Notes under the pieces: model-generated
Seen by the model: the letters and a program-made list of their open reading frames with translations, nothing else
Told to the model about the DNA's origin: nothing
The model's database searches: none
Program-made: the position numbers and the translations under genes
In this document: positions 8,846-38,220 of the stretch, in pieces
Layout: each line of letters starts with the position of its first letter
Position numbering within the stretch: the first letter of the stretch is position 1
Assembly: GCA_903920215.1 (NCBI GenBank)
Contig: CAIXLG010000007.1
Coordinates: 1 to 38,220 of the forward strand
DNA from: an uncultured Chlorobiaceae bacterium
Lineage (GTDB): Bacteria > Bacteroidota > Chlorobiia > Chlorobiales > Chlorobiaceae
DNA: 38,220 nucleotides
Direction of reading: 5' to 3'

Positions 8846-9154
8846 TCAGGCAGTTTTTTCTACATTCATGAGAAAAACACGAGCAGGAAAATCCTTGTCT
8901 ACGGCTATAGGGTTCTTCTCAAATTCCTGCATGATAGCTTCTGCCTTATCATCATCAAGAATGGCAAAACAAAGCGATGAATAGGTACCGATCATCTCAT
9001 CGGTTGGCCACCATGCCTGTCCAGGGAATCCTGTTTTTTCGCAGTTACACCCCCTGATATCCATACTGCTGATCATTGACACCTTATGCTCCTGAAAGAG
9101 ACGCCGCACTTTCGGACGGGTCTCTTCGTGTCCCATTATAGCCAGAAATTTCAT
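8846..9154 (-). CDS. Small PII-like protein coupled to the RND pump
   Basis: A 102-residue protein of unrecognised specific function. The predicted strand-helix-strand pattern (KFLAIMGHEETRPKVRRLFQEH; MISSMDIRGC; YSSLCFAILDDDKAEAIMQEF; FPARVFLMNVEKTA) suits a ferredoxin-like or PII/CutA-like fold. Similar small PII-like proteins are known beside heavy-metal RND pumps. The ATG overlaps the TGA of the pump gene by four bases, so translation is almost certainly coupled. The two cysteines in the RGCNCEK loop (C-x-C) could bind a metal or sulfur species. The fold assignment is inference from pattern only. Confidence 0.6.
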   Translation of the reverse strand: MKFLAIMGHEETRPKVRRLFQEHKVSMISSMDIRGCNCEKTGFPGQAWWPTDEMIGTYSSLCFAILDDDKAEAIMQEFEKNPIAVDKDFPARVFLMNVEKTA

Positions 9155-12100
9155 GATTTTTTAGTTATAACAGGTTTTTCGGATTTCTTTTCAGCCATAT
9201 AATAGACAATCGGCACAACCACGAGCGTTAAAATCGTTGAAAGAATACCGCCCCATATCAGTGATATGGCAAGACCCTGAAATATAGGATCAAAAAGCAT
9301 GACAATTGAACCAATAACAACAGCTCCAGAGGTCAATATAATCGGACGTGTACGAACTGCTGCAGATTCAATGACCGCCTGCTTAAGCTCAACTCCTTCC
9401 GCCCTGCGGATCTGGATAAAATCAATGAGCAGCACAGAATTCCTTACCATAATGCCTGCAAGAGCAATCATCCCGATCATACTCGTAGCAGTAAAGAACG
9501 CTCCGTGCAGCATGTGCCCTGGAATAATGCCCACAAGGCTCAAGGGAATGGCGATCATCATGATCAGCGGTGTCTTGAAAGACTGGAACCACCCGATAAT
9601 CAACAAGTAAATAATAACAAGTACCACAGCAAACGCCGTTCCAAGATCACGGAATACTTCAAAGGTAATCTGCCACTCTCCATCCCACTTCATCGAAAGC
9701 TTATCCTCCGATGTCGGGCTCGCCGTATAAAGCGGATCAATGGAATAGCCAGCAGGAAGCTTGATCTTCTGGATTTTTTTATCCATGTCGAGCATGGCGT
9801 AAACAGGGCTTTCCGTTGCACCGGCAACATCCGCAGTCACATACACCACCCGACGAAGATCCTTGTGGAAAATACTCTTGTCCTGAATTTTTTCCTCAAC
9901 CTTCACCAGCTCCGACAGTGGAATCATTTCACCGGCACGCAGGCGTGTTGTCAGCGTTCCCATTCCCTGTGACTGAACAAAAATACCCGAAAGATCATGC
10001 AGCGATGTTCTGTCAGACTGTGGCAGTCGAACCTGAATCGTTACCGGATCAAGATCAGTTGCCGTATGAATCAGCCCCACATCCATGCCGGCAAGCGACA
10101 TGCGAAGCGTCTGGGCTATCTGCTCGGCACTGACTCCCCGGAACGCAGCCCGCTCTTTGTTGACCACCAGATTGTAAACCTTCTGGTCAGCTTCAACCAT
10201 CCAGTCAACATCAACAACCCCTGGAGTCTCTTTAAAAACTTTTTTCACCTCAGTAGCAAGGGCAATCTGCTCACTCTGTGAAGGCCCGTAAATTTCAGCA
10301 ACAAGCGTTGACATAACAGGAGGCCCTGGAGGAATCTCGACAATCTTGGCATTTCCATGGTAACGCTGCGCAATCTGCTGAACTCCAGGTCTGACCCGTT
10401 TGGCAATATCATGGCTCTGTGCCTTACGTTCACCTTTATGAACAAGATTAACCTGGATATCGGCCATGTTCGCCTTCTGTCGGAGATAGTAGTGGCGAAC
10501 AAGGCCGTTGAAATTGATCGGTGCATTGGTACCTACGTAGTACTGGTAGCTGCTGACCTCCGGAATGGTTTTCAGATAGGCGGAAATCTCTTTGGTAACT
10601 CTTGCAGTCTGCTCAAGCGAGGTACCTTCCGGCATATCCAGAATAACCTGAAACTCGTTCTTGTTGTCAAACGGCAGCATCTTCATCTGAACAGCCTTGA
10701 GCGGCACCAGCGCAATCGCCCCAGCCAGCATTAAGCCAACAACACCAAAAGCCAGCCACCGTTTAACCGGGCTTTCAATAAACGGAGAAAGAATCTTGTT
10801 GAAGAGCTTGTAATAGCCTGTTTTGGTAACATCATACTCTTCGTGATGGCCACTCTCTGTTTTCAAAAGCCGGAATGAAAGCCAGGGCGTTGCAATAAGG
10901 GCAACCAGAAGAGAGAATATCATGGCAAGTGAAGCGCCAATAGGCATTGGGCTCATATAAGGGCCCATCAGGCCTGAAACAAATACCATCGGCAGCACGG
11001 CGGCAATAACGGTAAACGTTGCCAGAATGGTCGGATTACCCACCTCATTGATCGCGGTAATGGCTGCCTGCAGTTTTGGCTGTCGCTTCATGGCGAAGTG
11101 ACGGTGGATATTTTCGGCAATAATAATGGAATCATCAACAACAATACCAGTAACAAAAATCAGCGCAAAGAGCGTCACCCTGTTGAGTGAATAATCCAGC
11201 AGGTAATAGATCAGCAGGGTAAGTGCAAAAGTTATCGGCACCGAAGCGAGTACTACAAGCGATCCTCTCCAGCCAAGGAAAAATCCGACAACAATGGTAA
11301 CGGCCACCACAGCCATCAGCAGATGCTCAAGAAGGGTAAAGACTTTCTCAGATGCAGTCGCACCATAGTTCCTTGTCTCGGTCACCGTGATGTCTGAAGG
11401 AATAACCGTCTGGCGGAGCCCGGCGACCCGCTCCATAACCTTGTCGGCAAGGACTGAGGCATCGCCCCCTTTTCGCTTTGCAACCGTCACCGTTACAGCC
11501 GGGTACTCACCTGAAACTGAACCTTTGGGAGCGGCTGCAGCCCATCCGAAAAAGTTGTAGTTATTGACCTCTTCAGGACCATCAACCACACTGGCGACAT
11601 CTCGGAGATAAACCGGTGTCGCACCATAGATACCCACCACAATATTGCCAACATCGCTGGCGCTCTCAAGAAACGTTCCTGTGCGGACAACAATCTCCTG
11701 GTTCATCTGCTTGAAATCACCGGAGGTCATCTGGCTGTTTGCCATCTGCACCTGACGGGTTATCTGCAGAGGACTCACGTTGTACTTCAGGAGTTTTTCC
11801 TTGTCAAGAACAATCTTTATCTGACGTTTCAACCCTCCCTTTATTTCAACATCACCGATATTTTTGATCTTTTTCAGTTCATCGGCAACCTCTACGGCTG
11901 TTTTTCTTATCTGGAAAGGATCCTTGCTCTTGCTCCAGAAGGTGAGATTAAGCACAGGAACATCATCAATCGAAACCTTTTTCATCAACGGGAACTGGAC
12001 ACCAGCTGGCATCTTGTCCATGTTTTTCATGAGGGTCGACCAAAGCTTGACCATGCTTTTCTCGGCATCCTCTCCTACTTTATAGCGGACAGTCACCAGA

Positions 12101-12381
12101 GCGACATCAGGCATGGAGGTTGAATAAACATAATCCACTCCCGGAATTTCAGTCAATGTCCGTTCAATCGGCTTGGCAACTCGCGCTTCAATCTCGGCCG
12201 GTGCAGCACCAGGGAAAGGAATAAAAAGATCAACCATGGGCACCACAATCTGAGGCTCTTCCTCTCTTGGAGTCATAAATGTCGCCATAATGCCCACAAG
12301 GAGAGCGGCCACCATCAAGAGCGGTGTAATCTTCGAATTGATAAACTGTTTTGCAAGTTTACCGGCAATACCTTCATTCAT
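9151..12381 (-). CDS. RND-family efflux pump, inner-membrane subunit
   Basis: Proton-driven export across the inner membrane and periplasm as a trimer with an adaptor and TolC. The 1076-residue length is full. It shows an N-terminal transmembrane helix, a periplasmic domain starting LFIPFPGAAPAEIEARVAKPIE, a membrane block from about residue 340 (TLLEHLLMAVVAVTIVVGFFLG), a second periplasmic domain and a final membrane block ending IVYYMAEKK. The proton relay pair Asp416-Asp417 is present in TGIVVDDSIIIAENIH, the HAE-1/drug pattern, whereas CusA-type metal pumps differ there. Substrate is unknown. The start ATG overlaps the adaptor stop by four bases and the stop overlaps the PII-like start by four bases. 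Regulation by the CstR-like repressor at the operon head is inferred. Confidence 0.92.
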   Translation of the reverse strand: MNEGIAGKLAKQFINSKITPLLMVAALLVGIMATFMTPREEEPQIVVPMVDLFIPFPGAAPAEIEARVAKPIERTLTEIPGVDYVYSTSMPDVALVTVRYKVGEDAEKSMVKLWSTLMKNMDKMPAGVQFPLMKKVSIDDVPVLNLTFWSKSKDPFQIRKTAVEVADELKKIKNIGDVEIKGGLKRQIKIVLDKEKLLKYNVSPLQITRQVQMANSQMTSGDFKQMNQEIVVRTGTFLESASDVGNIVVGIYGATPVYLRDVASVVDGPEEVNNYNFFGWAAAAPKGSVSGEYPAVTVTVAKRKGGDASVLADKVMERVAGLRQTVIPSDITVTETRNYGATASEKVFTLLEHLLMAVVAVTIVVGFFLGWRGSLVVLASVPITFALTLLIYYLLDYSLNRVTLFALIFVTGIVVDDSIIIAENIHRHFAMKRQPKLQAAITAINEVGNPTILATFTVIAAVLPMVFVSGLMGPYMSPMPIGASLAMIFSLLVALIATPWLSFRLLKTESGHHEEYDVTKTGYYKLFNKILSPFIESPVKRWLAFGVVGLMLAGAIALVPLKAVQMKMLPFDNKNEFQVILDMPEGTSLEQTARVTKEISAYLKTIPEVSSYQYYVGTNAPINFNGLVRHYYLRQKANMADIQVNLVHKGERKAQSHDIAKRVRPGVQQIAQRYHGNAKIVEIPPGPPVMSTLVAEIYGPSQSEQIALATEVKKVFKETPGVVDVDWMVEADQKVYNLVVNKERAAFRGVSAEQIAQTLRMSLAGMDVGLIHTATDLDPVTIQVRLPQSDRTSLHDLSGIFVQSQGMGTLTTRLRAGEMIPLSELVKVEEKIQDKSIFHKDLRRVVYVTADVAGATESPVYAMLDMDKKIQKIKLPAGYSIDPLYTASPTSEDKLSMKWDGEWQITFEVFRDLGTAFAVVLVIIYLLIIGWFQSFKTPLIMMIAIPLSLVGIIPGHMLHGAFFTATSMIGMIALAGIMVRNSVLLIDFIQIRRAEGVELKQAVIESAAVRTRPIILTSGAVVIGSIVMLFDPIFQGLAISLIWGGILSTILTLVVVPIVYYMAEKKSEKPVITKKS

Positions 12382-12800
12382 TTCTTCTGAACCTCCTCAG
12401 TCACACGCGGACTCTTTATTACGGTTACTCCTTCATTAAGTGTGGGATTGTAGGTACCCACAACAAACTCTCCCTTATCCAACCCCCCAAGAACAACAAC
12501 TTCACCATGCATCATTCGACCCGTGCTTATCCATCGTAGCGACAGGCGGTCATCAGCTCCCACGACAAGAATACCGGTAAGTTCGCCTCGACTAACAATT
12601 GCCGATTTCGGCACCAGCAAAACCTCTTCTTCCCCTGCTGAGCCAACGGCAGTGCGAACCGGTACAATATTTTCAACAGCCACAGGAACCTCCGCCTTCC
12701 CGCTCTTTACCGGCTTAACCTCATTGTTTCCACAGCCCGCAAGAAACAGTAACCCTGCTGCAGGCAAAAAAAGCAATTTCTTTTTGATAGGTATACCCAT
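12378..12800 (-). CDS. Truncated RND membrane-fusion lipoprotein
   Basis: Periplasmic adaptor reduced to 140 residues, against about 350-400 in the family. Residues 1-23 are a lipoprotein signal with lipobox LAGC (Cys23). Residues 36-55 (VPVAVENIVPVRTA) match the usual N-terminal start of an adaptor. From residue 58 (VLLVPKSAIVSRGEL) to 128 (NEGVTVI) it matches the C-terminal beta-barrel/membrane-proximal end. The helical hairpin and lipoyl domain are missing, as if an in-frame deletion joined residues 55-57. The frame is open and the gene is embedded between an intact tolC and an intact pump with a four-base overlap. Whether it still works as a mini-adaptor, or the system uses another adaptor, cannot be told. 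A genuine variant family is the alternative. Confidence 0.8.
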   Translation of the reverse strand: MGIPIKKKLLFLPAAGLLFLAGCGNNEVKPVKSGKAEVPVAVENIVPVRTAVGSAGEEEVLLVPKSAIVSRGELTGILVVGADDRLSLRWISTGRMMHGEVVVLGGLDKGEFVVGTYNPTLNEGVTVIKSPRVTEEVQKK

Positions 12801-12831: not shown

Positions 12832-14157
12832 TCAGTTTCCCCGGTAGTAGGCAAGCTCACTTTTTGCCACGCAGTAATCATACTTTGCCTGATTCAACCT
12901 CATTTTCGCATAGGTATAGGCCTGCTCCCTCATCAACAGTTCAAAGGTCATTGCCATACCGGTTTTGTACTGCGACCCGATATAATCCAGGCTGACTTTA
13001 CTCTCTTCAATTGACTTCTGGGCAACAGCGATTCTGGCTTTAGCAGTTCTCATTGACCGTATTGATTTATCAACTTCTGCAATGCTGTTGCTTCGGGCGT
13101 TTTCATAGTTGTACATCGCCTCGCGCTCCTTGGCTTTTGCCTCCTGAATCTGGCCGGCCGACGACATGCCATCGAAAATATTCCACTGCACATTCATACC
13201 GAGTCCCCAGCTTGAGCCTCCACTGAAAATATTATCACTATGCAGGTTTGTCTGCAGAAACGCGTTCACACGGGGCAGCCTTGACGCACGAGCCATATCT
13301 GCCTGATAACCGGCAATCTGCCTGCTTGTTTCGAGTGCCTTGAGATCAGCCCTGTTTTCAGGCACAGTTTTGTTTTCGCCACCCGGCACAGCACCATCAA
13401 TCACAAGATCTCCTGTCGGAACAATCGCAACATGAGAATCAAGATGCAGCAGCACATGGAGAGCATCGGTCGCATCTTTTATCGCGTCATACAGCATAAG
13501 CTTCTGCTCCTGAAGCTCTGCAAGCCTGACCTCTGTTGAAAGCTTGTCGGATTTTGTCATTAGCCCGGCACTAAAGGCTTTAGCCGCTTCGTTACTGTGT
13601 CCCTGCATGGTTTTGATGGACTGTTCGACAGCCTCAATATTTTTTCTGGCAAGAATCAGTCCGTAATAGACTTTGCTGACCTGAAAACCGATGGTTTCCT
13701 CAGTCCTGACAGCCATATGCTCCTCGGCTTTTTTGGCAGTAACCGCAATGCTCCGGCCTATTGCAGCATCGGCATTGTAAACAGGCTGCATAACCTGAAG
13801 AGAGGTATTAAAATCGTTGATGACATCGGGCTTGTTCAGCTTGTCCGGCAAAAAATCCATAGTCTGTATACTGCTCTGCTGCAGCTTGAACACTAATGCT
13901 GCTCCGGGATCATTGGTCACCATAAGAGTCTCCGACAGGGTGACTTTCGGTAGCGTCGTCTGGCGGGTCTGTACTATCCTTGCCTCAGCCTGATCAATCC
14001 GGCTGCGGGAAGCCTTAATGGAAGAATTGTTCTGACGGGCCATTGAGATGGCATCGGACAGAGAAAGCTTCAGGTTTGTTTCAGCGGCTTTAGCCTGAAG
14101 CGGCGAGGTCAGAGATCCCGCCACACAAAAACCGATCAGTGCTTTATGTACCTTCAT
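12832..14157 (-). CDS. TolC-family outer-membrane efflux protein
   Basis: Outer-membrane exit duct of the tripartite pump. The 441-residue protein begins with a signal peptide ending near QAKA (residue 24). Two TolC repeats follow: the first starts LSLSDAISMARQNNSSIKASRSRIDQAEA, the second around residue 260 with RADLKALETSRQIAGYQADMARASRLPRV. Long coiled-coil helices, LGMNVQWNIFDG (a barrel strand) and a C-terminal MLREQAYTYAK-like helix are present. It begins 6 bases after the repressor gene and ends 31 bases before the adaptor. The length and duplicated architecture are normal, in contrast to the truncated adaptor next door. Confidence 0.93.
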   Translation of the reverse strand: MKVHKALIGFCVAGSLTSPLQAKAAETNLKLSLSDAISMARQNNSSIKASRSRIDQAEARIVQTRQTTLPKVTLSETLMVTNDPGAALVFKLQQSSIQTMDFLPDKLNKPDVINDFNTSLQVMQPVYNADAAIGRSIAVTAKKAEEHMAVRTEETIGFQVSKVYYGLILARKNIEAVEQSIKTMQGHSNEAAKAFSAGLMTKSDKLSTEVRLAELQEQKLMLYDAIKDATDALHVLLHLDSHVAIVPTGDLVIDGAVPGGENKTVPENRADLKALETSRQIAGYQADMARASRLPRVNAFLQTNLHSDNIFSGGSSWGLGMNVQWNIFDGMSSAGQIQEAKAKEREAMYNYENARSNSIAEVDKSIRSMRTAKARIAVAQKSIEESKVSLDYIGSQYKTGMAMTFELLMREQAYTYAKMRLNQAKYDYCVAKSELAYYRGN

Positions 14158-28562: not shown

Positions 28563-29078
28563 ATGAGGTATGACAAACATTTTTTTTCTCTATCATTTTT
28601 TGCAATCCTGATTGCGATTGGTTTCTCTCTTGAACAGAACGGTATGCATATTTCAGGCATAACCGGCTATTTTAACCCATTCTATAATTCCGCTGAAGCA
28701 GCCCAGCTGCCAAAGAAAGTCACCGCGGTTACACATTCAGCTAAAAACAAAGGCATCACTCTTGTGGGTGAGGGTAAAGCCTCCTACTACTCCGATGAGT
28801 TTCACGGACGCAAAACGGCAAACGGCGAAACCTTCAATATGAATAAACTGACGGCAGCCCACCCTTCACTTCCATTCGGTACCTGGGTTAGAGTAACGAA
28901 CCTGAGAAATGGCAAAGATGTAGTTGTACGCATCAATGATCGAGGCCCGTTTGTCAAAGGAAGGATCATTGACCTCTCTGTTCATGCAGCTACAGAGCTT
29001 GGAATCATTCAGTCCGGAACCGTAAAGGTAAAACTTGAAGCTCTCGGATCAGGCAACTTGGCATCATCCGCTGGGTGA
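28563..29078 (+). CDS. RlpA-like protein 1 (double-psi beta-barrel)
   Basis: Envelope protein of 171 residues. An N-terminal hydrophobic segment ([13 protein letters not shown]) targets it to the periplasm or membrane. The DPBB domain at about 68-162 has the RlpA signature: [43 protein letters not shown] and [17 protein letters not shown]. The family is septal lytic transglycosylase-like and cuts denuded glycan strands. The usual C-terminal SPOR domain is absent, so this is a short variant. It is one of two tandem copies, 258 bases before the second. The catalytic His of TAAH and the Asp of NDRGP are present. Confidence 0.87.
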
Positions 29079-29336: not shown

Positions 29337-29831
29337 ATGACGACAATAAAACCATTCAGTTCAGTACTCCTCTTTCTCCTGATTTGTTCAGCATCAATGA
29401 ACACAGGCACACTCCAGGCAACAGAAACACACGATATTGCAGAAACAGCCGCCACTAGTGTTCAGTGGTTGCCCGAAAACAGTAACAGTAATCCCTCATC
29501 GTCAACAACTGGACGGTCAATAGTCTCTAATGAACGTTGTCTTGTTGCCGAAGGAAAAGCTTCGTACTACTCCAACCATTTCCATGGAAGGAAAACAGCC
29601 AGCGGCGAGTCATTTAACCACCGTCATTTCACTGCAGCCCACCGTTCACTCCCGTTCGGCACCAGCGTCAGGGTTATTAATCTTGAAAATGGAAAAAATG
29701 TGGTAGTGCGCATCACTGACCGTGGGCCACACATGAAGGGGAGAATTATTGACGTTTCACAGGCAGCAGCTAAAGAGATTGGACTTTTTGGCAATGGCAC
29801 AGCAAACGTCCGTATTGAGGCCTTCAATTAA
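29337..29831 (+). CDS. RlpA-like protein 2 (double-psi beta-barrel)
   Basis: A 164-residue paralog of the upstream gene, with a signal peptide ([16 protein letters not shown]). Its RlpA domain reads [45 protein letters not shown] and [17 protein letters not shown]. The linker is serine/asparagine-rich ([12 protein letters not shown]). Like its neighbour it lacks SPOR. Divergence between copies is moderate at the protein level, so the duplication is not recent. Its stop lies only 7 bases from the convergent methyltransferase stop, leaving no room for a conventional terminator between them. The pair may serve at different growth stages; this is not visible in the sequence. Confidence 0.87.
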
Positions 29832-30581: not shown

Positions 30582-32429
30582 TTAAAGACCCTTCAAATAC
30601 TTTGTAATATGATCAACAAAAGCATTGGCATCAAGAATACCTACAATTCGGCTTTCAGGAATTTCCGTTCCCGCTTTATCAAAGAAAATAATTCCTGGAG
30701 GGCCGAACAGGCCAAACCGCTTCATTAACGCCCGATCATCTTCAGTATTGGCGGTAACATCTACTTGCAGCAACGTCAATCCATTGAGCTGTTCAATAAC
30801 CTTCTTGTCATGGAAAGTAAACCGATCCATCTCCTTGCATGCTACGCACCAATCCGCAAAGAAATCAAGCATAACGGGTTTATTGGCGGATTGAAGTGCG
30901 CGGTCAAGTTCCGCTCCCGATCTGATACGGGTGAAATTAACTTTTTTCTCATCACCTGATCCGCCAGACAATTGCGATGCTGCACGGAATTGAGCAAGTG
31001 GTTCAAGAACGTTAATACCACCTGAAGCAGCTCCGACAAGTTCAAGCAACCCGAGAATAAGCAAGACGATACCAAAAGTCTTTCCAAAACGTTGTGCTAT
31101 GGAAAGCTTTTCAGGAGATGCTTTGAAAACATTGAGAAACACAGCACACAGAATTGCAAAAGCACCCCAGAAAATCATAACAACTTGAGCCGGAAGAACA
31201 GGCGAAACCATCCAGATGGCAACGGCTATCAACATAAGCCCAAAAACATATTTAACCCCTATCATCCACGCTCCTGCCTTCGGTAACAGACTACCGGCTG
31301 ACAGTCCGACAAGAAGCAGGGGAACACTCATTCCCATCGCCATCGAAAAAAGTGCCAGGCCACCGAGAAACACATCCTTGGTCTGACTGATATACACCAG
31401 GGTCCCTGCAAGTGGGGCAGCAACGCAAGGCCCAACAATAAGAGCCGATAAAGCCCCCATAATAAAGACTCCGGCAAAACGTCCACCCTTTAAATTTCTC
31501 GAGGTGTTGTTAAGTTTGTTTTGTATTGCAACCGGCATTTGCAACTGATAAACATCGAACATCGACAGGGAAAGAAACACAAGCAGCACAGCAAACAGTA
31601 CAAGTACCCAGGGCTTTTGCAGTGCGCCGGCAAGCCCTTCACCAGCGAGTCCAGCTGCAACGCCGAGGCTTGTATAAACTAATGCCATACCGAGACAGTA
31701 CGCGACAGCCATTAAAAAACTGCGACGTCTGTTCACATCACCCTCTCCCACAATGATAGAAGAAAGAATAGGAATCATTGGCAGAACACAAGGCGTAAAC
31801 GATAACAACAACCCGAAAGCAAGAAAAGCCAGAGAGATTTGCCATAAACTCCCGCCTGCAAGAGTAGCTTTGGCAAGAGAAAGATCATTATCTGCCGAAC
31901 TCTGTTTCGGCGACTGCTGAGAAGTCAGCTTCTCAGCAACAGAAGCACTTGCGCCCGCATTTTCGCCAGCAAAAGCAAGCACTCCCGGCTTGTTCGGATC
32001 AACCTTGAACAAACGGGTCATAGGCGGATAACAGAGACCATCCTCAGCACACCCCTGATACTCAACGCTTAGCGTAAATAATCCATCCGTCTTCACCAGA
32101 GGCACGTCTACCGTCAAGGTATCATGATAGATCTCAACCGATTCACCGCTTGTTGGATCAGTAACCTTTATGGCTTTCGGCAATACAAGAGGCTGCAACT
32201 GAGCTTTACCGCTTTCAACGCCAACCTTCACCCTGTCGCGATACAATTTATACCCCTTGGCTATATCCCAATGCACAACAACTGATTTGGCATTGTTCAG
32301 TTCAGCCTTGACTTTGAAAGCCTGTTCAGGATCAAGGAAATCAGTCGCAAAACAAGCAGTTGCCCTTAGGAAAAGGGCAACTAAAACGACAATGAATGCG
32401 GCGTGACGCAGAAAAGATTTATGATTCAT
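30582..32429 (-). CDS. dsbD: Thiol:disulfide interchange protein DsbD
   Basis: Carries electrons from cytoplasmic thioredoxin to periplasmic substrates. The 615-residue protein has a signal peptide, an N-terminal immunoglobulin-like DsbD-alpha domain with two cysteines (GCAEDGLCYPP), a central eight-helix core with the two conserved cysteines in FTPCVLPMIP and GPCVAAPLAG, and a C-terminal thioredoxin domain with Cys528 and Cys531 (WCVACKEMD). The frame opens upstream at a TTG (32471) with no ribosome-binding site; I chose the ATG at 32429 before the signal peptide. It follows apbE by 44 bases. It probably supplies electrons to the TlpA-like thioredoxin encoded upstream. Confidence 0.93.
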   Translation of the reverse strand: MNHKSFLRHAAFIVVLVALFLRATACFATDFLDPEQAFKVKAELNNAKSVVVHWDIAKGYKLYRDRVKVGVESGKAQLQPLVLPKAIKVTDPTSGESVEIYHDTLTVDVPLVKTDGLFTLSVEYQGCAEDGLCYPPMTRLFKVDPNKPGVLAFAGENAGASASVAEKLTSQQSPKQSSADNDLSLAKATLAGGSLWQISLAFLAFGLLLSFTPCVLPMIPILSSIIVGEGDVNRRRSFLMAVAYCLGMALVYTSLGVAAGLAGEGLAGALQKPWVLVLFAVLLVFLSLSMFDVYQLQMPVAIQNKLNNTSRNLKGGRFAGVFIMGALSALIVGPCVAAPLAGTLVYISQTKDVFLGGLALFSMAMGMSVPLLLVGLSAGSLLPKAGAWMIGVKYVFGLMLIAVAIWMVSPVLPAQVVMIFWGAFAILCAVFLNVFKASPEKLSIAQRFGKTFGIVLLILGLLELVGAASGGINVLEPLAQFRAASQLSGGSGDEKKVNFTRIRSGAELDRALQSANKPVMLDFFADWCVACKEMDRFTFHDKKVIEQLNGLTLLQVDVTANTEDDRALMKRFGLFGPPGIIFFDKAGTEIPESRIVGILDANAFVDHITKYLKGL

Positions 32430-32473
32430 AGGGTAGTGAGGGAAAAAAATTATCAAGTACTTCTGTATCAACG

Positions 32474-33364
32474 TTATGTGTTCTTGTAAAACATCTCTCC
32501 AAGCTGGTCAACAGCAAGGTATCCCATCCCGGAGTTCTCCAGAAAGGCTAATCCCTCCGCCCCTTTCAGCATTGCTATTGTGGAGTAGCTGCCTGCTGTA
32601 ATAGCTAACGGGGCTACAACCGTTACTGATCGCCAGTAGGTGACTGGATACCCTGTACGAGGATGAATAATATGACAGTAGCGATGACCGTCCACTTCAA
32701 AAAAGCGCTCATAGTCGCCACTGGTCGCTAACGCTCCAGTAAAAAGAGGAATAGAGGCAATCGTTCTCTTTTTATGACGCGGATCCTGAATCCCGATCAA
32801 CCAGGGGCTCTCGTCAAGCTTTGGGCCAACAACCCGTATATCTCCTGCAAGGTTTACATAGCCATTTCTGATCCCTTTACCATGAATCAATGCCGCAGCC
32901 CTGTCAGCAGCATACTCTTTGCCGAATCCTCCAAAATCGAGCTCCATGCCGGCTATAGGCAACCGAACGGAATTGCCCTGACGCTCAACACTATTCCAAT
33001 TAATCAGACCGCATCGCCCGGACAAAACTCCATTATCGGGCACAACAGCATTACCGAAATCCCATGCATGGCGCAAAACACCTGCAGTAATATCGAACAG
33101 TCCACCACTACTTTCGTACAACGTATCAGCATACTGGAACAAAGAGAGCGTCTCTTCATCACACTCAACCCAGTCCAGACCCGCTGCGGCATTTATGCGT
33201 GAAACGATGCTATCACTCCTGTAGCGGGAGAACTTGCGTTCAATTCTTGAAACCTCTTCAATTGCACACCCTGCAATTGTCTGAGCATCCTTTTTAGATT
33301 CTGCAACAATAACAACCTCACAGCCACTTCCCATGGCATCAAATCGAAAATGAAAACTATCCAT
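32474..33364 (-). CDS. apbE: FAD:protein FMN transferase (ApbE family)
   Basis: Transfers FMN from FAD onto a Ser/Thr of a target protein. The 296-residue length is standard. Landmarks are FDAMGSGCEVVI at the N-terminus, RIERKFSRYRSDSIVSRIN, the LFDITAGVL segment, LDFGGFGKEYAADRA with the family's GG-x-GKGYAAD-type motif, VNLAGDIRV, LATSGDYERFF and HIIHPRTGYPV. The in-frame codons just upstream of the ATG include TAA and TGA, so there is no signal peptide; many ApbE proteins are exported. It belongs to the DsbD/TlpA/DUF3570 cluster, and its target protein was not identified in this window. Confidence 0.92.
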   Translation of the reverse strand: MDSFHFRFDAMGSGCEVVIVAESKKDAQTIAGCAIEEVSRIERKFSRYRSDSIVSRINAAAGLDWVECDEETLSLFQYADTLYESSGGLFDITAGVLRHAWDFGNAVVPDNGVLSGRCGLINWNSVERQGNSVRLPIAGMELDFGGFGKEYAADRAAALIHGKGIRNGYVNLAGDIRVVGPKLDESPWLIGIQDPRHKKRTIASIPLFTGALATSGDYERFFEVDGHRYCHIIHPRTGYPVTYWRSVTVVAPLAITAGSYSTIAMLKGAEGLAFLENSGMGYLAVDQLGEMFYKNT

Positions 33365-33471
33365 GCCTGTGTTTCATTATGCATCGACCCTTTTTCAAGA
33401 GCGGTTAATCTTTCAAAGCAAATAGGGAAATAACGGTAATTTACTTCACTACCATAACCGGAAGCCCCTCA

Positions 33472-34614
33472 TTATAAAAGAACCCACGAAAGAATACCCA
33501 GTATTCCAACACCAGCCAATGCAGGTGCAGTATAGCTGCTGCCATCTGCCGGAAGAGCTGTAGTAGGAATCACTGTCGGAGGTGTGAGCGCAGTTGCAAC
33601 AGTTGAAAAGTGATAGGCCGTTGTACCTGAGTATCCATTACCTGCCAAATCCTGTATGGAGCCCTGAGCCAGCGTAACATAGTAATCTGTCCCGTTTGAA
33701 AGATCTGCTGTCGGATTGATTGTCAGCGTCGTACCCGAAACAGTCAGTGATTCAGTTGGATTGGTGGCCGCATTGGTCGCCACAACTGCACCGGTAGCAG
33801 AACCACTATGAACTTCAATCAAACCAGCACCTAACTGTACCGCTTCACTGAACGTAAGAACTATATTGTTGCCAACCGCTACACCCGTACCCCCGGACGT
33901 TGGACTGAACGTAACCACTGTTGGCGGTGTGGTGTCGGTAGGAACAGTGCCTGCTGCTACAGTCGTAAAGTCATAGGATGACGTGCCAGCAAAACTGTTA
34001 CCCGCCAGATCCTTAATGGAGCCTGAGGCCAGCATAACAAAGTAATGCGTTCCATTCGCAAGATCTGCCGTTGGATTGATTGTCAGCGTCGTACCCGAAA
34101 CAGTCAGTGATTCAGTTGGATTGGTGGCCGCATTGGTCGCCACAACTGCACCGGTAGCAGAACCACTATGAACTTCAATCAAACCAGTCCCTAATTGTAC
34201 CGCTTCACTGAACGTAAGAACTATATTGCTGGCAACCCCTACCCCCGTAGCTCCAGCCACTGGACTGAACCCTGAAACCGTTGGAGGAGTTGTGTCGGTC
34301 GGTGTGATAGGAGTACCGTAGGATAACTGGACCGTTGTGTCACTAAATTTCAGGGATTCAACGCTTGTGAGATTGAATGTAAATCTTGCCCCACCACCGC
34401 TAGCGCCAGAGACTACAATCATTCCATTAGCATCAGCTGGTCCTATTGAAAAACCTTTGCTATTAAATGTTGAGTAGTTTTGACCTGTAACAAGATCAAA
34501 CGTATCAGTTCCGGCAAGACCATTTAATGTATAAGTATTTGATGTCCTATTCGGCGTACCCAAGCGAGCAAGAAGTACATTATCATTATTCGTGGTTCCG
34601 GTCCAGTTAGGCAT
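33472..34614 (-). CDS. Ig-like (Big_5/SbsA) repeat protein, exported type
   Basis: A 380-residue protein. The N-terminal about 100 residues contain TGTTNNDNVLLARLG and LAGTDTFDLVTG, resembling a beta-roll or calcium-binding segment, with no classical signal peptide. Two Ig-like domains follow (about 108-220 and 228-340), each beginning PTDTTPPTV and running through LTFSEAVQLG, IEVHSGSATG, TLTINPTADL and GSIxDLAGN. The C-terminal 20 residues are hydrophobic (LAGVGILGILSWVLL) without a basic tail. The repeats are nearly identical at DNA level, suggesting recent duplication or exchange. It sits between DUF3570 and apbE. Adhesin or S-layer type roles are possible but not shown. Confidence 0.75.
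   Translation of the reverse strand: MPNWTGTTNNDNVLLARLGTPNRTSNTYTLNGLAGTDTFDLVTGQNYSTFNSKGFSIGPADANGMIVVSGASGGGARFTFNLTSVESLKFSDTTVQLSYGTPITPTDTTPPTVSGFSPVAGATGVGVASNIVLTFSEAVQLGTGLIEVHSGSATGAVVATNAATNPTESLTVSGTTLTINPTADLANGTHYFVMLASGSIKDLAGNSFAGTSSYDFTTVAAGTVPTDTTPPTVVTFSPTSGGTGVAVGNNIVLTFSEAVQLGAGLIEVHSGSATGAVVATNAATNPTESLTVSGTTLTINPTADLSNGTDYYVTLAQGSIQDLAGNGYSGTTAYHFSTVATALTPPTVIPTTALPADGSSYTAPALAGVGILGILSWVLL
33713..33827 (-). repeat. 115-base exact direct repeat, copy 2 in the gene
   Basis: Identical to 34073-34187 over 115 bases, exactly 360 bases apart, inside the Ig-like protein gene. Flanking sequence remains similar over about 300 bases. Confidence 0.9.
34073..34187 (-). repeat. 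115-base exact direct repeat, copy 1 in the gene
   Basis: Identical partner of 33713-33827. Perfect DNA identity inside a longer diverged repeat implies recent gene conversion or duplication of the Ig-like domain. Confidence 0.9.
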
Positions 34615-34774
34615 ATTTCCCCCTGTATATTTAATTTTTATAACGTTTTGTATGGTTTTCTATATAAATTACATAGGCCTAAACCTATATAATTGTACTC
34701 GGACGACAAGCCTCAAGATTAAATAGCTACACATATCTTGGTCATGATTCTATGTTGCTGAATCATACCCCTGC

Positions 34775-35893
34775 TTAAAAGTGTCGCGACAAGCCAAGTT
34801 GAATACTTCCAGCATAGAATGGTAAAAGCCCCGTGTCACCACCACCTGATAAGCACCACTCTGGACGCTGCTCATAACTCTCGATTCTCGCATCAGCAAG
34901 CCACTCTTTGGCAATTTTTTTCTCAATTTTTATACCAATTGATGTTGCGCCAAAAGCTGAAAGACGCTGATCTAGAGAATAATTTGTGGGAAGAGTCGCT
35001 AGAGGATCAGACGTTGGCAGATAAAAGTTCGCCGCTGTTTGTGAGTAAAATCTGAACAGTGGCGTTACCGTCCATTCATGAGGTAATGGCTGCACGTACT
35101 CCAATCCGAATGTATGCGCATTGATACCGAATGAGTCAGTGTAATATCGATAGGATAACCTGGCAGTCCCGTCTCTGCGGTCAAAATGATGGTTCCACCT
35201 GGTCATGACCGTCTTGCTTTCCCGCTTGTCCGGCCGTAGATCAATTAACTTGTAGGGGTCGCTAAAATAGCCCTTGCCGCTGGAATACCCAACGTTAAGC
35301 TGAACGATGTCCTCCTTTGTCAGCACCTGTGTAACACCGATCATCCCTGAATAAGATCGTTTATCGTAAAATGATGCTTTATTAATGGTTGGGTTGATAG
35401 TATCGGTAGTATAGCTGCCGCCGAACGTGAAGGTCGTATTCTTATCATCAGTAGAGATACTCTCCTGTGCAGAATAGCCACGTGAAATGTAATCATGTTC
35501 CTTTGAATAACTGCTTCCAAGAGTAACCGATCCTTTAGGAAGGTAGCGGGTAACGCTAAGATCAACAGCCTGCCTGTTTTCAGTCATCCTGGATGCACCG
35601 GAAACAACCGTAGAATGCGCATCCGGGGATGCACCGGAAACAGAATCATTCGTGTAGGTTGTACTTATTGACCACTTTCCCGCAATTGGAACCATGCCCA
35701 TTACAGAATAAGCATTGACACCAACCCTATCCTTACCTGGTTGACTATCCTCGTAATTCAGGTATTTGAAGCTTACAATGCTGCTTTCCGGCGCAGCCTC
35801 TGCAAAAGCAGTTTGAGATGACGGTAATGCCATAGCTGCAGCAAAAAGAGCTGCTCCGACAACATTCGTTGTTTGGTTTGTGACTGATTTCAT
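34775..35893 (-). CDS. DUF3570 outer-membrane beta-barrel
   Basis: A 372-residue protein with a signal peptide ending near TAFA (residue 31). It consists of amphipathic beta strands (VSFKYLNYEDSQPGKDRVGVNAYSV; RLSYRYYTDSFGINAHTFGLEYVQPL) and ends with an aromatic residue (SRHF), as in outer-membrane barrels. DUF3570 is a family of unknown function. Relatives usually lie next to a DUF4266 lipoprotein, as here (27 bases downstream of it), often with ApbE and a thioredoxin. The barrel is likely large (16 or more strands). No plug or metal-binding motif is visible. The gene order suggests translation soon after the lipoprotein. Confidence 0.85.
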   Translation of the reverse strand: MKSVTNQTTNVVGAALFAAAMALPSSQTAFAEAAPESSIVSFKYLNYEDSQPGKDRVGVNAYSVMGMVPIAGKWSISTTYTNDSVSGASPDAHSTVVSGASRMTENRQAVDLSVTRYLPKGSVTLGSSYSKEHDYISRGYSAQESISTDDKNTTFTFGGSYTTDTINPTINKASFYDKRSYSGMIGVTQVLTKEDIVQLNVGYSSGKGYFSDPYKLIDLRPDKRESKTVMTRWNHHFDRRDGTARLSYRYYTDSFGINAHTFGLEYVQPLPHEWTVTPLFRFYSQTAANFYLPTSDPLATLPTNYSLDQRLSAFGATSIGIKIEKKIAKEWLADARIESYEQRPEWCLSGGGDTGLLPFYAGSIQLGLSRHF

Positions 35894-35920
35894 TGGTATG
35901 CCCTAAAATTTATATGTTCA

Positions 35921-36160
35921 TTAATTGCATCCGCATCCACCGCCACCGACACCTGAGCCACCTGAAGCAGCCTCTTTACTGCTGTAAATATGCTCAGTGT
36001 ACTTTGAATCGAGCGGATCACCTTCAAAAGTCATCTCCGGCCTTGCCAGAGTCTCTTTCTCCCAAGGCTGAACTGCAGGCCCTATAGAACAACCCGTCAA
36101 CCCAAGCACAATCAGATACAAAAGCGCTCGCAGTGATTTGAGTATGAAATTGGATTTCAT
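35921..36160 (-). CDS. DUF4266 lipoprotein with Gly-rich C-G-C tail
   Basis: A 79-residue lipoprotein. The lipobox LTGC places the acylated Cys at residue 24. The middle (PWEKETLARPEMTFEGDPLDSKYTEHIYSSKEAA) is the DUF4266 signature. The tail is glycine-rich and ends with two cysteines (Cys76 and Cys78) and a terminal Asn. That tail is conserved in DUF4266 proteins and would be a surface-exposed metal or redox site, or a point of modification. The ATG overlaps the TGA of the TlpA-like gene by four bases, so the two are coupled. Its function is unknown. The tail's resemblance to a cysteine-rich peptide substrate is only a hint. Confidence 0.85.
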   Translation of the reverse strand: MKSNFILKSLRALLYLIVLGLTGCSIGPAVQPWEKETLARPEMTFEGDPLDSKYTEHIYSSKEAASGGSGVGGGGCGCN

Positions 36161-36672
36161 TTTTTTCCCTCCAATGCGGTCTGAATCTGCTTTTCAAGTC
36201 CGTCCCTGTCGCTGGCTTTAAATCCTAAATGCTGAGATATGATTTTACCATCGCGGCCAACGAGAAAACTGGTTGGCATACCCTTGACGCCGTAATGTTT
36301 AGGGGTCTCACCTTTTGAGTCAAACGCTACAGTAAAAAGTGCAGGGTTCTGCGCAAGAAATTTTTTTGCATCCTCTGTTTTGCCATCAAGATTAACCCCG
36401 ATAATTTTCACTCCTTTGGACCTGTATTTTTCCTGCATGGCATTCATCCAAGGGAACGACTGCTGGCATGGACCGCACCATGATGCCCAGAAATCAACAT
36501 AGACTACAGAGCCTGCTGTGCTTGAAAGCCTTACTGTTCCCTGCGCCCCTGGCAATTCAAAATCCGGAGCCTTGCTGCCGGGTTCTAAAGCATAGAGGTT
36601 TCCAGTAAAGCTGATGCAAAAAATCATTGAAAGGAGGAATCCCTTCAATTTTTTTCTTTTTAACTCTTCCAT
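36157..36672 (-). CDS. TlpA/ResA-like periplasmic thioredoxin
   Basis: A 171-residue exported thiol-disulfide protein. The signal peptide is MEELKRKKLKGFLLSMIFCI onward, ending near YA (residue 28). The thioredoxin domain has VVYVDFWASWCGPCQQSFPWMN with Cys66 and Cys69, the cis-proline region KGMPTSFLV and an IIGVNLDGKTEDAKKFL insertion typical of TlpA/ResA. I chose the ATG at 36672; the frame is open to 36765, but that extension would precede the signal peptide. It is the first gene of the DUF4266-DUF3570 operon and probably keeps the cysteine tail or the barrel in the right redox state. DsbD downstream is a natural electron donor. Confidence 0.9.
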   Translation of the reverse strand: MEELKRKKLKGFLLSMIFCISFTGNLYALEPGSKAPDFELPGAQGTVRLSSTAGSVVYVDFWASWCGPCQQSFPWMNAMQEKYRSKGVKIIGVNLDGKTEDAKKFLAQNPALFTVAFDSKGETPKHYGVKGMPTSFLVGRDGKIISQHLGFKASDRDGLEKQIQTALEGKK

Positions 36673-37095
36673 AGCGGTAATGTTTGATTTATTAAAACGG
36701 AAATTCCAGATGAAAACACAGTAAATAATAAAGCCGGTAAACACTGCTATCTTTAAGCTTACCATGGAGGTAAATAATTGACTTCACCAAAATACTATGG
36801 CAGCACTTTACAGTAATTAATAATCCATGTGTGAAATGCAGTAAGTACCGAAACACTGCGTCGTTGATTATTACAGAAATAAAGTACCCAACATGAACTT
36901 AAACCATCATTAAGAGACTCTTAAAAAAGGCTTAAATTTGGCCAACAATAAAAGTTTTTATGCGATGTGTGTTTTATACAATTTTCCCAACGGTAGCGTT
37001 AGACTCTAATTTCAGATAAGTAGCCATTAACGCTTTTTATAGCATGAGGTTTGAGTAGCTTCTCGGCTATGCTTACTTGAAAAGAGTTCATAACA
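36673..37095. other. 423-base intergenic region before the TlpA-like operon
   Basis: No credible gene. A perfect 15-base palindrome (TTAAGAG, A, CTCTTAA) lies at 36910-36924, about 240 bases upstream of the operon start, a possible regulator site. The rest is AT-rich with no recognisable RNA. Confidence 0.5.
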
Positions 37096-37165: not shown

Positions 37166-37762
37166 TTATTTTGCCAATTTGACGGTAACAGTAGCAGTTT
37201 TACCATCAGCGACGGTAACTGTACCTTCCTGGGCTTTGAGTTTTTCGCTCCAGGCAGTGATCTTGTATGTTCCAGCAGGAACATTACTAATGGTGAATTT
37301 TCCATCATGTTCGGTCACTGCGGCATATTGATTTTCTGTAACAACAACCCAGCCTGACATTTCAGAGTGGACATTGCAAAGCAGATTCACTACACCTGGC
37401 TTGTCAAAAGTAACAGGCTTGGACATGCCAGGATTATAGGTGCCAAGATTGAATTTTTTGGCGGCTGATGCTGAAAAAATATTATGGTTGACTTTATCAT
37501 TATTCTTGAAGTCAACCGTTGAGCCGACAGGCACAGTAGTAACATGTGGAACAAAAACAAGGCTTTTCTGATCAACTGATTCATGCTTTGGCACAACCGG
37601 ACCCTTAACACCCAATAAGTACACAACAGCATCTGCTTTGTACTTAGCTATGCTTGCATCAACAGTACCAGTAACTGTCCCACCACAAAAAGCATTCGAT
37701 GCCATAAAACCGAACCCTGTCATCAACAGTGCGGTTTTCAAAAACTTGCTTGTAGATTTCAT
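37166..37762 (-). CDS. Exported cupredoxin-like copper protein with carboxypeptidase-regulatory-like tail
   Basis: A 198-residue protein with a signal peptide (KFLKTALLMTGFGFMASNAFC). The blue-copper set is visible: His93 (VNHNIF), Cys129, His132 and Met135 in LLCNVHSEMSG, a C-x2-H-x2-M site. The region 140-198 (DGKFTISNVPAGTYKITAWSE) is a carboxypeptidase-regulatory-like beta sandwich. The frame extends five codons to 37777; I chose the ATG at 37762. It lies 88 bases downstream of the c-type cytochrome. Together they look like a periplasmic electron-carrier pair. Methylamine-utilisation-type homologues are the closest description; the electron partner is unknown. Confidence 0.85.
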   Translation of the reverse strand: MKSTSKFLKTALLMTGFGFMASNAFCGGTVTGTVDASIAKYKADAVVYLLGVKGPVVPKHESVDQKSLVFVPHVTTVPVGSTVDFKNNDKVNHNIFSASAAKKFNLGTYNPGMSKPVTFDKPGVVNLLCNVHSEMSGWVVVTENQYAAVTEHDGKFTISNVPAGTYKITAWSEKLKAQEGTVTVADGKTATVTVKLAK

Positions 37763-37850
37763 TGTTTTGTGCTCCATTACATTTTGGTTTTTAATAAAAT
37801 AGCCCTCTCATAAATCAACAGAAATAAAACAAAAAGAATTACTGGAAAGT

Positions 37851-38220
37851 TCAGTTGGTGGCTAGAGTTCTGATATAGGCAACAATGAACTCGAGCTCCT
37901 CGCTGTGGAACGATTTGCCCCATGGAGGACACATGTTGGACTTGCCGACTGAGGCAGAACCCTCCATGATCGCCTTGAAAAGCCTCTCATTCGTCATGCT
38001 CTTCATAAAGGCCTTATCGGTGAAATTGGCCGGCGTTGGAGTCAAACCATAGTACTGACCGCTTCCATCACCAGTCTCCCCATGACAGACAGCACAGTAG
38101 TGCGAGAAAAGCCGCTTGCCTTCTTTCAGGGCATAGGGCACCTTTGTGGCGGTGACGGCTGAGTCAGCAGCCGTCATCGGTTTTTTGAGGTCAGCTTTTC
38201 CTGATGCGCCTGGTTTCTTG
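37851..38220 (-). CDS. c-type cytochrome, 5' end outside the window
   Basis: Partial gene. The reading frame stays open beyond the ATG at 38177 to the window end (KKPGASGKADLKKP precedes it), so the signal peptide and true start lie beyond 38220. The visible 108-plus residues hold a heme-binding CAVCH near YCAVCHGETGDGSGQYYGL, a probable axial Met in SNMCPPWGKSF and a terminal helix ELEFIVAYIRTLA, matching a class I cytochrome c. It is 88 bases upstream of the cupredoxin-like gene on the same strand, probably one operon. Confidence 0.9.
   Translation of the reverse strand, partial: KKPGASGKADLKKPMTAADSAVTATKVPYALKEGKRLFSHYCAVCHGETGDGSGQYYGLTPTPANFTDKAFMKSMTNERLFKAIMEGSASVGKSNMCPPWGKSFHSEELEFIVAYIRTLATN

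Follow-up and report, generated by a model that had tools for sequence, protein, structure and literature searches.

The DsbD systems described by Meheust et al. (2021, eLife; PMC8238504) bring together ApbE, DUF3570, a thioredoxin-like protein and DUF4266. These authors noted the C-terminal CXC motif of DUF4266, for which redox cycling was proposed, and demonstrated by experiment that the ApbE of Chlorobium luteolum flavinylates the DUF3570 protein of this species at two [S/T]GA[S/T] sites; leader-truncated constructs were co-expressed in E. coli, and the flavinylated DUF3570 came from the insoluble pellet. In this work, we analysed a window of 38,220 nucleotides (the whole stretch of DNA given above) from an uncultured Chlorobiaceae bacterium, in which six minus-strand genes form a cluster, in transcription order tlpA, DUF4266, DUF3570, Big_5, apbE and dsbD (Table 1). 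The genome belongs to a green sulfur bacterium resembling Chlorobium, and the loci closest to this one are found in Chlorobium and in Chlorobiaceae metagenome-assembled genomes. As in the published system, apbE stands by DUF3570, and the two motifs, the CXC of DUF4266, a thioredoxin-like protein and DsbD are all present. We consider it somewhat probable that the cluster is a form of this DsbD/DUF3570 flavinylation system that presents covalently bound flavin mononucleotide (FMN) on the outer cell face.

Because Meheust et al. published the system in 2021 and defined it as the DsbD/DUF3570 flavinylation system (PMC8238504), it is not new. The first-pass annotation of this DNA had taken it for an undescribed system, an idea that is rejected, and had considered DUF4266 and DUF3570 to be without assigned function, which the same paper contradicts. 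What our computational analysis adds is the rule of an ApbE without leader in Chlorobia and proteobacterial clusters, flavin sites predicted in the outer loops, a linked, probably secreted protein bearing the flavinylation motif and a DUF4266 tail that is invariant even in length. Neither the absence of an ApbE leader nor the membership of the Big_5 protein in the system was seen in the first-pass annotation; the Big_5 gene had been counted among the six and left unnamed in the title of that annotation. Its description of the locus was confirmed on the sequence, namely six genes on the same strand, an overlap of 4 bases between tlpA and DUF4266 (36157-36160), a gap of 27 bases from DUF4266 to DUF3570 (35894-35920) and a CGC tail.

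The ApbE of the cluster, with a domain score of 251.6 bits against a curated cut-off of 25.6, is the only one of the genome. It has neither the signal peptide nor the lipobox that classically mark an extracytosolic ApbE, and since its open frame counts 299 codons for a protein of 296 residues, there is no room for a leader. A leader was also absent from about 95 of the 115 ApbEs examined, in two phyla; most of the remaining ApbEs bear a leader and belong either to Chlorobia devoid of DUF3570 or to other families' clusters, and the hydrophobicity rule accounts for a few falsely positive calls among them. Among the 35 Chlorobia genomes with an ApbE, the enzyme was leaderless in all 26 that possess DUF3570, where it is usually the sole ApbE, whereas it was a lipoprotein in eight of the nine without DUF3570, the ninth being a cluster cut by a contig end (26/0 against 1/8, Fisher p 4e-7, relatedness not removed). 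The two genes are separated by the Big_5 gene in our window and are directly adjacent in other genomes, including a single-contig genome (G108) in which the leaderless apbE adjoins a DUF3570 with one FMN motif each in barrel loops 1 and 2. As judged from these sequences, a leaderless ApbE is the rule in Chlorobia and in proteobacterial clusters, implying that flavinylation would take place in the cytosol, before export.

DUF3570 has the features of an outer-membrane beta-barrel, i.e. an even number of strands, a signal peptide (called by eye and by a hydrophobicity rule) and a C-terminal Phe. Its AlphaFold model is a closed barrel (predicted local distance difference test, pLDDT, 87; predicted template modelling score 0.83) whose fold matches the solved barrels CdiB, PelB, CymA, BcsC and OmpG over its length, with Z of 17-22. 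In the model, turns of 2-5 residues lie on the side of the termini and loops of up to 28 residues on the opposite side, and both SGAS sites are carried by a single loop (residues 87-103). By the topology usual for such barrels, both sites would be on the outer side. All 65 DUF3570 proteins compared have G87 and A88, and 64 have D83; moreover, every [ST]GA[ST] motif of these 65 homologues is in outer loop 1 or 2, the second site being in either loop. Flavin on the lipoprotein, which the first-pass annotation had allowed for, was rejected, as DUF4266 has no such motif and the barrel has two. The barrel, and not the lipoprotein, is the flavoprotein of the system. The same genome holds a second, incomplete cluster (L033:378-3199, G000:C2) with one DUF4266 gene and two tandem DUF3570 genes; the FMN motifs of this pair lie in loops 1 and 2, and there is no ApbE in that cluster.

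The DUF4266 lipoprotein (lipobox Cys at residue 24) ends in GGSGVGGGGCGCN, with a Gly-rich stretch ahead of Cys76 and Cys78. The tail ends in CGCN or CGCG in all 84 distinct homologues from Chlorobia and proteobacteria, at a constant length of 16 residues after a conserved Glu, and the CGC is kept in other Bacteroidota as well. Invariance of the tail cysteines, which had been put forward as a check, is therefore borne out. No maturation enzyme was seen that would make the tail a cleaved modified peptide, although no direct test of this was made. The TlpA-like protein, whose start at 36672 was picked by comparison with relatives of 171 residues, has a CGPC active site (Cys97 and Cys100, numbered from the longer start at 36765). 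It matches Redoxin and AhpC-TSA; PF13899, the family named in PMC8238504, is matched here by the C-terminal domain of DsbD. DsbD has all six redox cysteines (141/147, 228/349 and 542/545).

Chlorobia and beta/gammaproteobacteria share the neighbourhood (80 loci and 20 further genome regions), and the DUF4266-DUF3570-ApbE set is also present in other Bacteroidota; this recurrence is far beyond chance and bears out the conserved neighbourhood that the first reading had asked to be verified. DUF4266 was found in 112 of the 394 genomes of the window's phylum. In some betaproteobacteria (L101, L105, L109, L112, L114, L116 and others), the TlpA gene comes after DUF3570 and not before DUF4266, so that the order of the genes changes and the set of genes does not. 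In addition, DUF5666 (6/105) and DUF6502 (5/105) occur among the proteins neighbouring betaproteobacterial loci (alignment A4) and are possible further partners there. The earlier proposals of the barrel as partner of the lipoprotein and of a thiol/flavin redox theme are supported.

The first 100 residues of the Big_5 protein form a beta-rich domain, modelled with pLDDT mostly of 82-96. No Pfam family matched this domain, a PDB sequence search with it returned nothing convincing, and a fold search with the whole model was dominated by Ig-like domains and was uninformative on this part. At E 1e-8 or better, the N-terminal domain was detected in 39 of the 394 genomes, 38 of which have DUF4266 (Fisher p 3e-22 overall, 6e-6 within the family), and coordinate comparison placed 40 of 46 matches within 7 kb of a DUF4266 gene. 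Because of this linkage, the Big_5 gene is regarded as part of the system, and its being an unrelated insertion was ruled out. In 13 genomes lacking the domain in the cluster, a single marginal match was found elsewhere (E 6e-4). The protein has no RTX family match and no GGxGxDxxx nonapeptide repeats and is not classed as an RTX protein; the Chlorobium copies have a hydrophobic C-terminal tail, unlike the RTX paralogues. It has no N-terminal signal peptide and is probably secreted; a HlyD-type gene is located elsewhere in the genome, and no exporter or type I secretion family is among the 25 commonest neighbour families. Within the Big_5 gene, positions 33720-33850 and 34080-34210 are near-identical DNA; the Big_5 unit has probably been duplicated there recently.

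Whether the Big_5 protein might be a second substrate of ApbE depends on the reading of its SGAS motif, and we put the chances of this candidate role at about even. An [ST]GA[ST] motif occurs in 23 of 25 Chlorobiales copies (counting L055, which is cut short, and L061, with the motif at the N-terminus) and in 8 of 14 beta/gammaproteobacterial copies, in the turn that leads into a conserved L-x-S-V-E strand. It is nearly as probable that the motif is a structural beta-turn bearing no flavin, in an adhesin that sits in the cluster by happenstance: [ST]GAT arises by chance in adhesin repeats ('AISGATGT') and SGAS once in a TlpA, the Asp three residues ahead of the motif is absent from most Chlorobium copies, some betaproteobacterial copies read SSAS or SAAS, and many clusters have no Big_5 protein at all. 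Against this reading, 31 of 39 copies have the motif at the same fixed place, where shuffling would give 0.8 (relatedness not removed), and none of seven RTX paralogues has it there. Furthermore, betaproteobacterial copies read DSVSGAS, exactly as DUF3570, one copy is pared down to MAAIDFISGAS followed by repeats, and the N-terminal domain is limited to genomes with the system.

The most economical reading of the cluster is a thiol-to-flavin relay from DsbD through TlpA and the CXC tail to the barrel FMN at the surface. The leaderless ApbE would transfer FMN from cytosolic flavin adenine dinucleotide (FAD) onto the two SGAS sites of DUF3570 ahead of Sec export, after which the barrel would enter the outer membrane with the loop that carries FMN either outside or tucked into the lumen. 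Electrons might then pass from cytosolic thioredoxin to DsbD and to the TlpA-like protein, which would reduce the two CXC cysteines at the end of the flexible, Gly-rich tail of the outer-membrane lipoprotein DUF4266. The resulting dithiol could exchange electrons with the barrel FMN through the dithiol-flavin chemistry known from disulfide reductases, and from the FMN they could reach an acceptor outside the cell; the secreted Big_5 protein, if flavinylated too, might serve as an intermediate. This proposal draws on gene content, conservation, the ApbE without leader, the loops in which the predicted barrel carries the motifs and the flavinylation of DUF3570 that others showed in a close relative; we infer the steps from TlpA to FMN, the direction and the acceptor. 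A more specific version is rather unlikely, namely a cytochrome-free route in which the cytosolic ApbE loads FMN before export onto both the barrel and the leaderless secreted protein, and the CXC tail, Gly-rich and invariant in length, extends into the barrel, where electrons pass between it and the outer-loop FMN.

Several points weigh against surface display of a flavin attached in the cytosol. All the evidence of this analysis is computational, export through Sec of a chain with two FMN groups is unproven, and loop 2 could fold into the lumen instead of facing the medium. One genome (G007) has DUF3570, ApbE and DsbD and no DUF4266, so the tail is not required in every genome. Clusters of other families (L050, L051, L176, L180, L183 and L186) have an ApbE with a signal peptide, and modification in the cytosol is therefore not universal. 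According to a review (PMC12052999), the ApbEs studied so far almost all work outside the cytosol, and cytosolic ones are mentioned only for substrates that stay inside. These last observations would suit the same system with an ApbE that reaches the periplasm by a non-classical path and flavinylates the barrel there, as textbook ApbEs do. We find this quite improbable, given that the leader is missing over two phyla and that the same bacterial family uses a normal lipoprotein ApbE where DUF3570 is absent. Moreover, flavinylated DUF3570 in the insoluble pellet after leader-truncated co-expression (PMC8238504) fits modification before export, as it means that the enzyme can modify an unexported chain.

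It is also unlikely that the system mainly handles metals, with a CXC tail binding iron or copper, a barrel acting as a channel for metal or metallophore and a flavin reducing the metal. CXC tails are able to bind soft metals, cupredoxin and cytochrome c genes lie upstream in Chlorobia, and the VIT1 iron transporter was reported in 25 published clusters (PMC8238504). However, metal transporters are not among the 25 commonest neighbour families in our scan of 38 loci, no further obvious metal ligand is invariant in DUF4266, and the presence of DsbD and TlpA in the cluster argues for a tail that thiol exchange keeps reduced.

Table 1. Features of the cluster, with window positions, strand and supporting evidence
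Feature	Position	Strand	Evidence
DsbD, full three-domain reductant conduit	30582..32471	-	NCBIfam PRK00293 2e-175; DsbD_TM 2e-94 (Pfam)
ApbE flavin transferase without signal peptide	32474..33364	-	PF02424 1e-74
Big_5 protein, leaderless: unannotated N-terminal domain (~1-100), two Big_5 domains, hydrophobic C-terminal tail	33472..34614	-	Big_5 5e-43 (Pfam)
Candidate FMN site S69-G-A-S72 in Big_5 protein	34399..34410	-	Motif conserved at this place
DUF3570, predicted outer-membrane 16-strand beta-barrel, flavinylation substrate	34775..35893	-	PF12094 4e-71; AlphaFold model
FMN site 2 in DUF3570, S98-G-A-S101	35591..35602	-	Conservation and model
FMN site 1 in DUF3570, S86-G-A-S89, D83 before	35627..35638	-	Conservation; motif type flavinylated in C. 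luteolum (PMC8238504)
DUF4266 lipoprotein, 79 residues	35921..36160	-	PF14086 3e-24; lipobox LTGC
CXC tail of DUF4266, Cys76-Gly-Cys78	35927..35935	-	CXC in 84/84 distinct homologues
TlpA/ResA-like thioredoxin-fold protein, N-terminally anchored	36157..36672 or 36765	-	Redoxin 9e-26 (Pfam)

Just upstream of tlpA, positions 37166-37777 encode a protein with cupredoxin and carboxypeptidase-regulatory domains and positions 37851-38219 a monoheme cytochrome c. Cupredoxin and cytochrome c genes are linked to the cluster in many Chlorobia and in L051, and may share the same electron route. A tandem pair of RlpA-family genes (28563-29078 and 29337-29831) stands beside the cluster, and relatives retain this pair together with Kup and a methyltransferase gene. 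Farther away, a lipoprotein of 140 residues (12378-12800) resembles a membrane-fusion adaptor and is far too short for one; its gene has a TolC-like gene (12832-14157) on one side and an RND pump (9151-12381) on the other.

If the proposed reading is true, a heme-free display of covalent flavin at the cell surface would be possible in a Gram-negative bacterium, and attachment of the flavin before export would make FAD export unnecessary. A shared role that can be put to the test would also follow, in green sulfur bacteria, for DUF3570, DUF4266 and the unannotated secreted domain.

Compared with known systems, the locus is nearest to the DsbD/DUF3570 system, from which it differs in that the text of PMC8238504 is silent on a leaderless ApbE, on FMN sites in outer loops and on the Big_5 protein. 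The ApbE of Klebsiella fumarate reductase, cited in PMC12052999, is likewise cytosolic and devoid of a signal peptide; its substrate is a soluble fumarate reductase, whereas the known substrate here is an exported barrel. Extracellular electron transfer by Listeria PplA is alike in using covalent FMN beyond the cytosolic membrane as an electron exit. To our knowledge, that system has no barrel, DsbD or CXC lipoprotein. It also differs in being Gram-positive and, according to PMC9973259, in having an extracytosolic ApbE-like enzyme, FmnB. Finally, the likeness to MtrCAB-type conduits is at most one of working, as a barrel and redox cofactors join periplasm and surface in both; the cofactors are hemes there, and would be flavin and thiols here.

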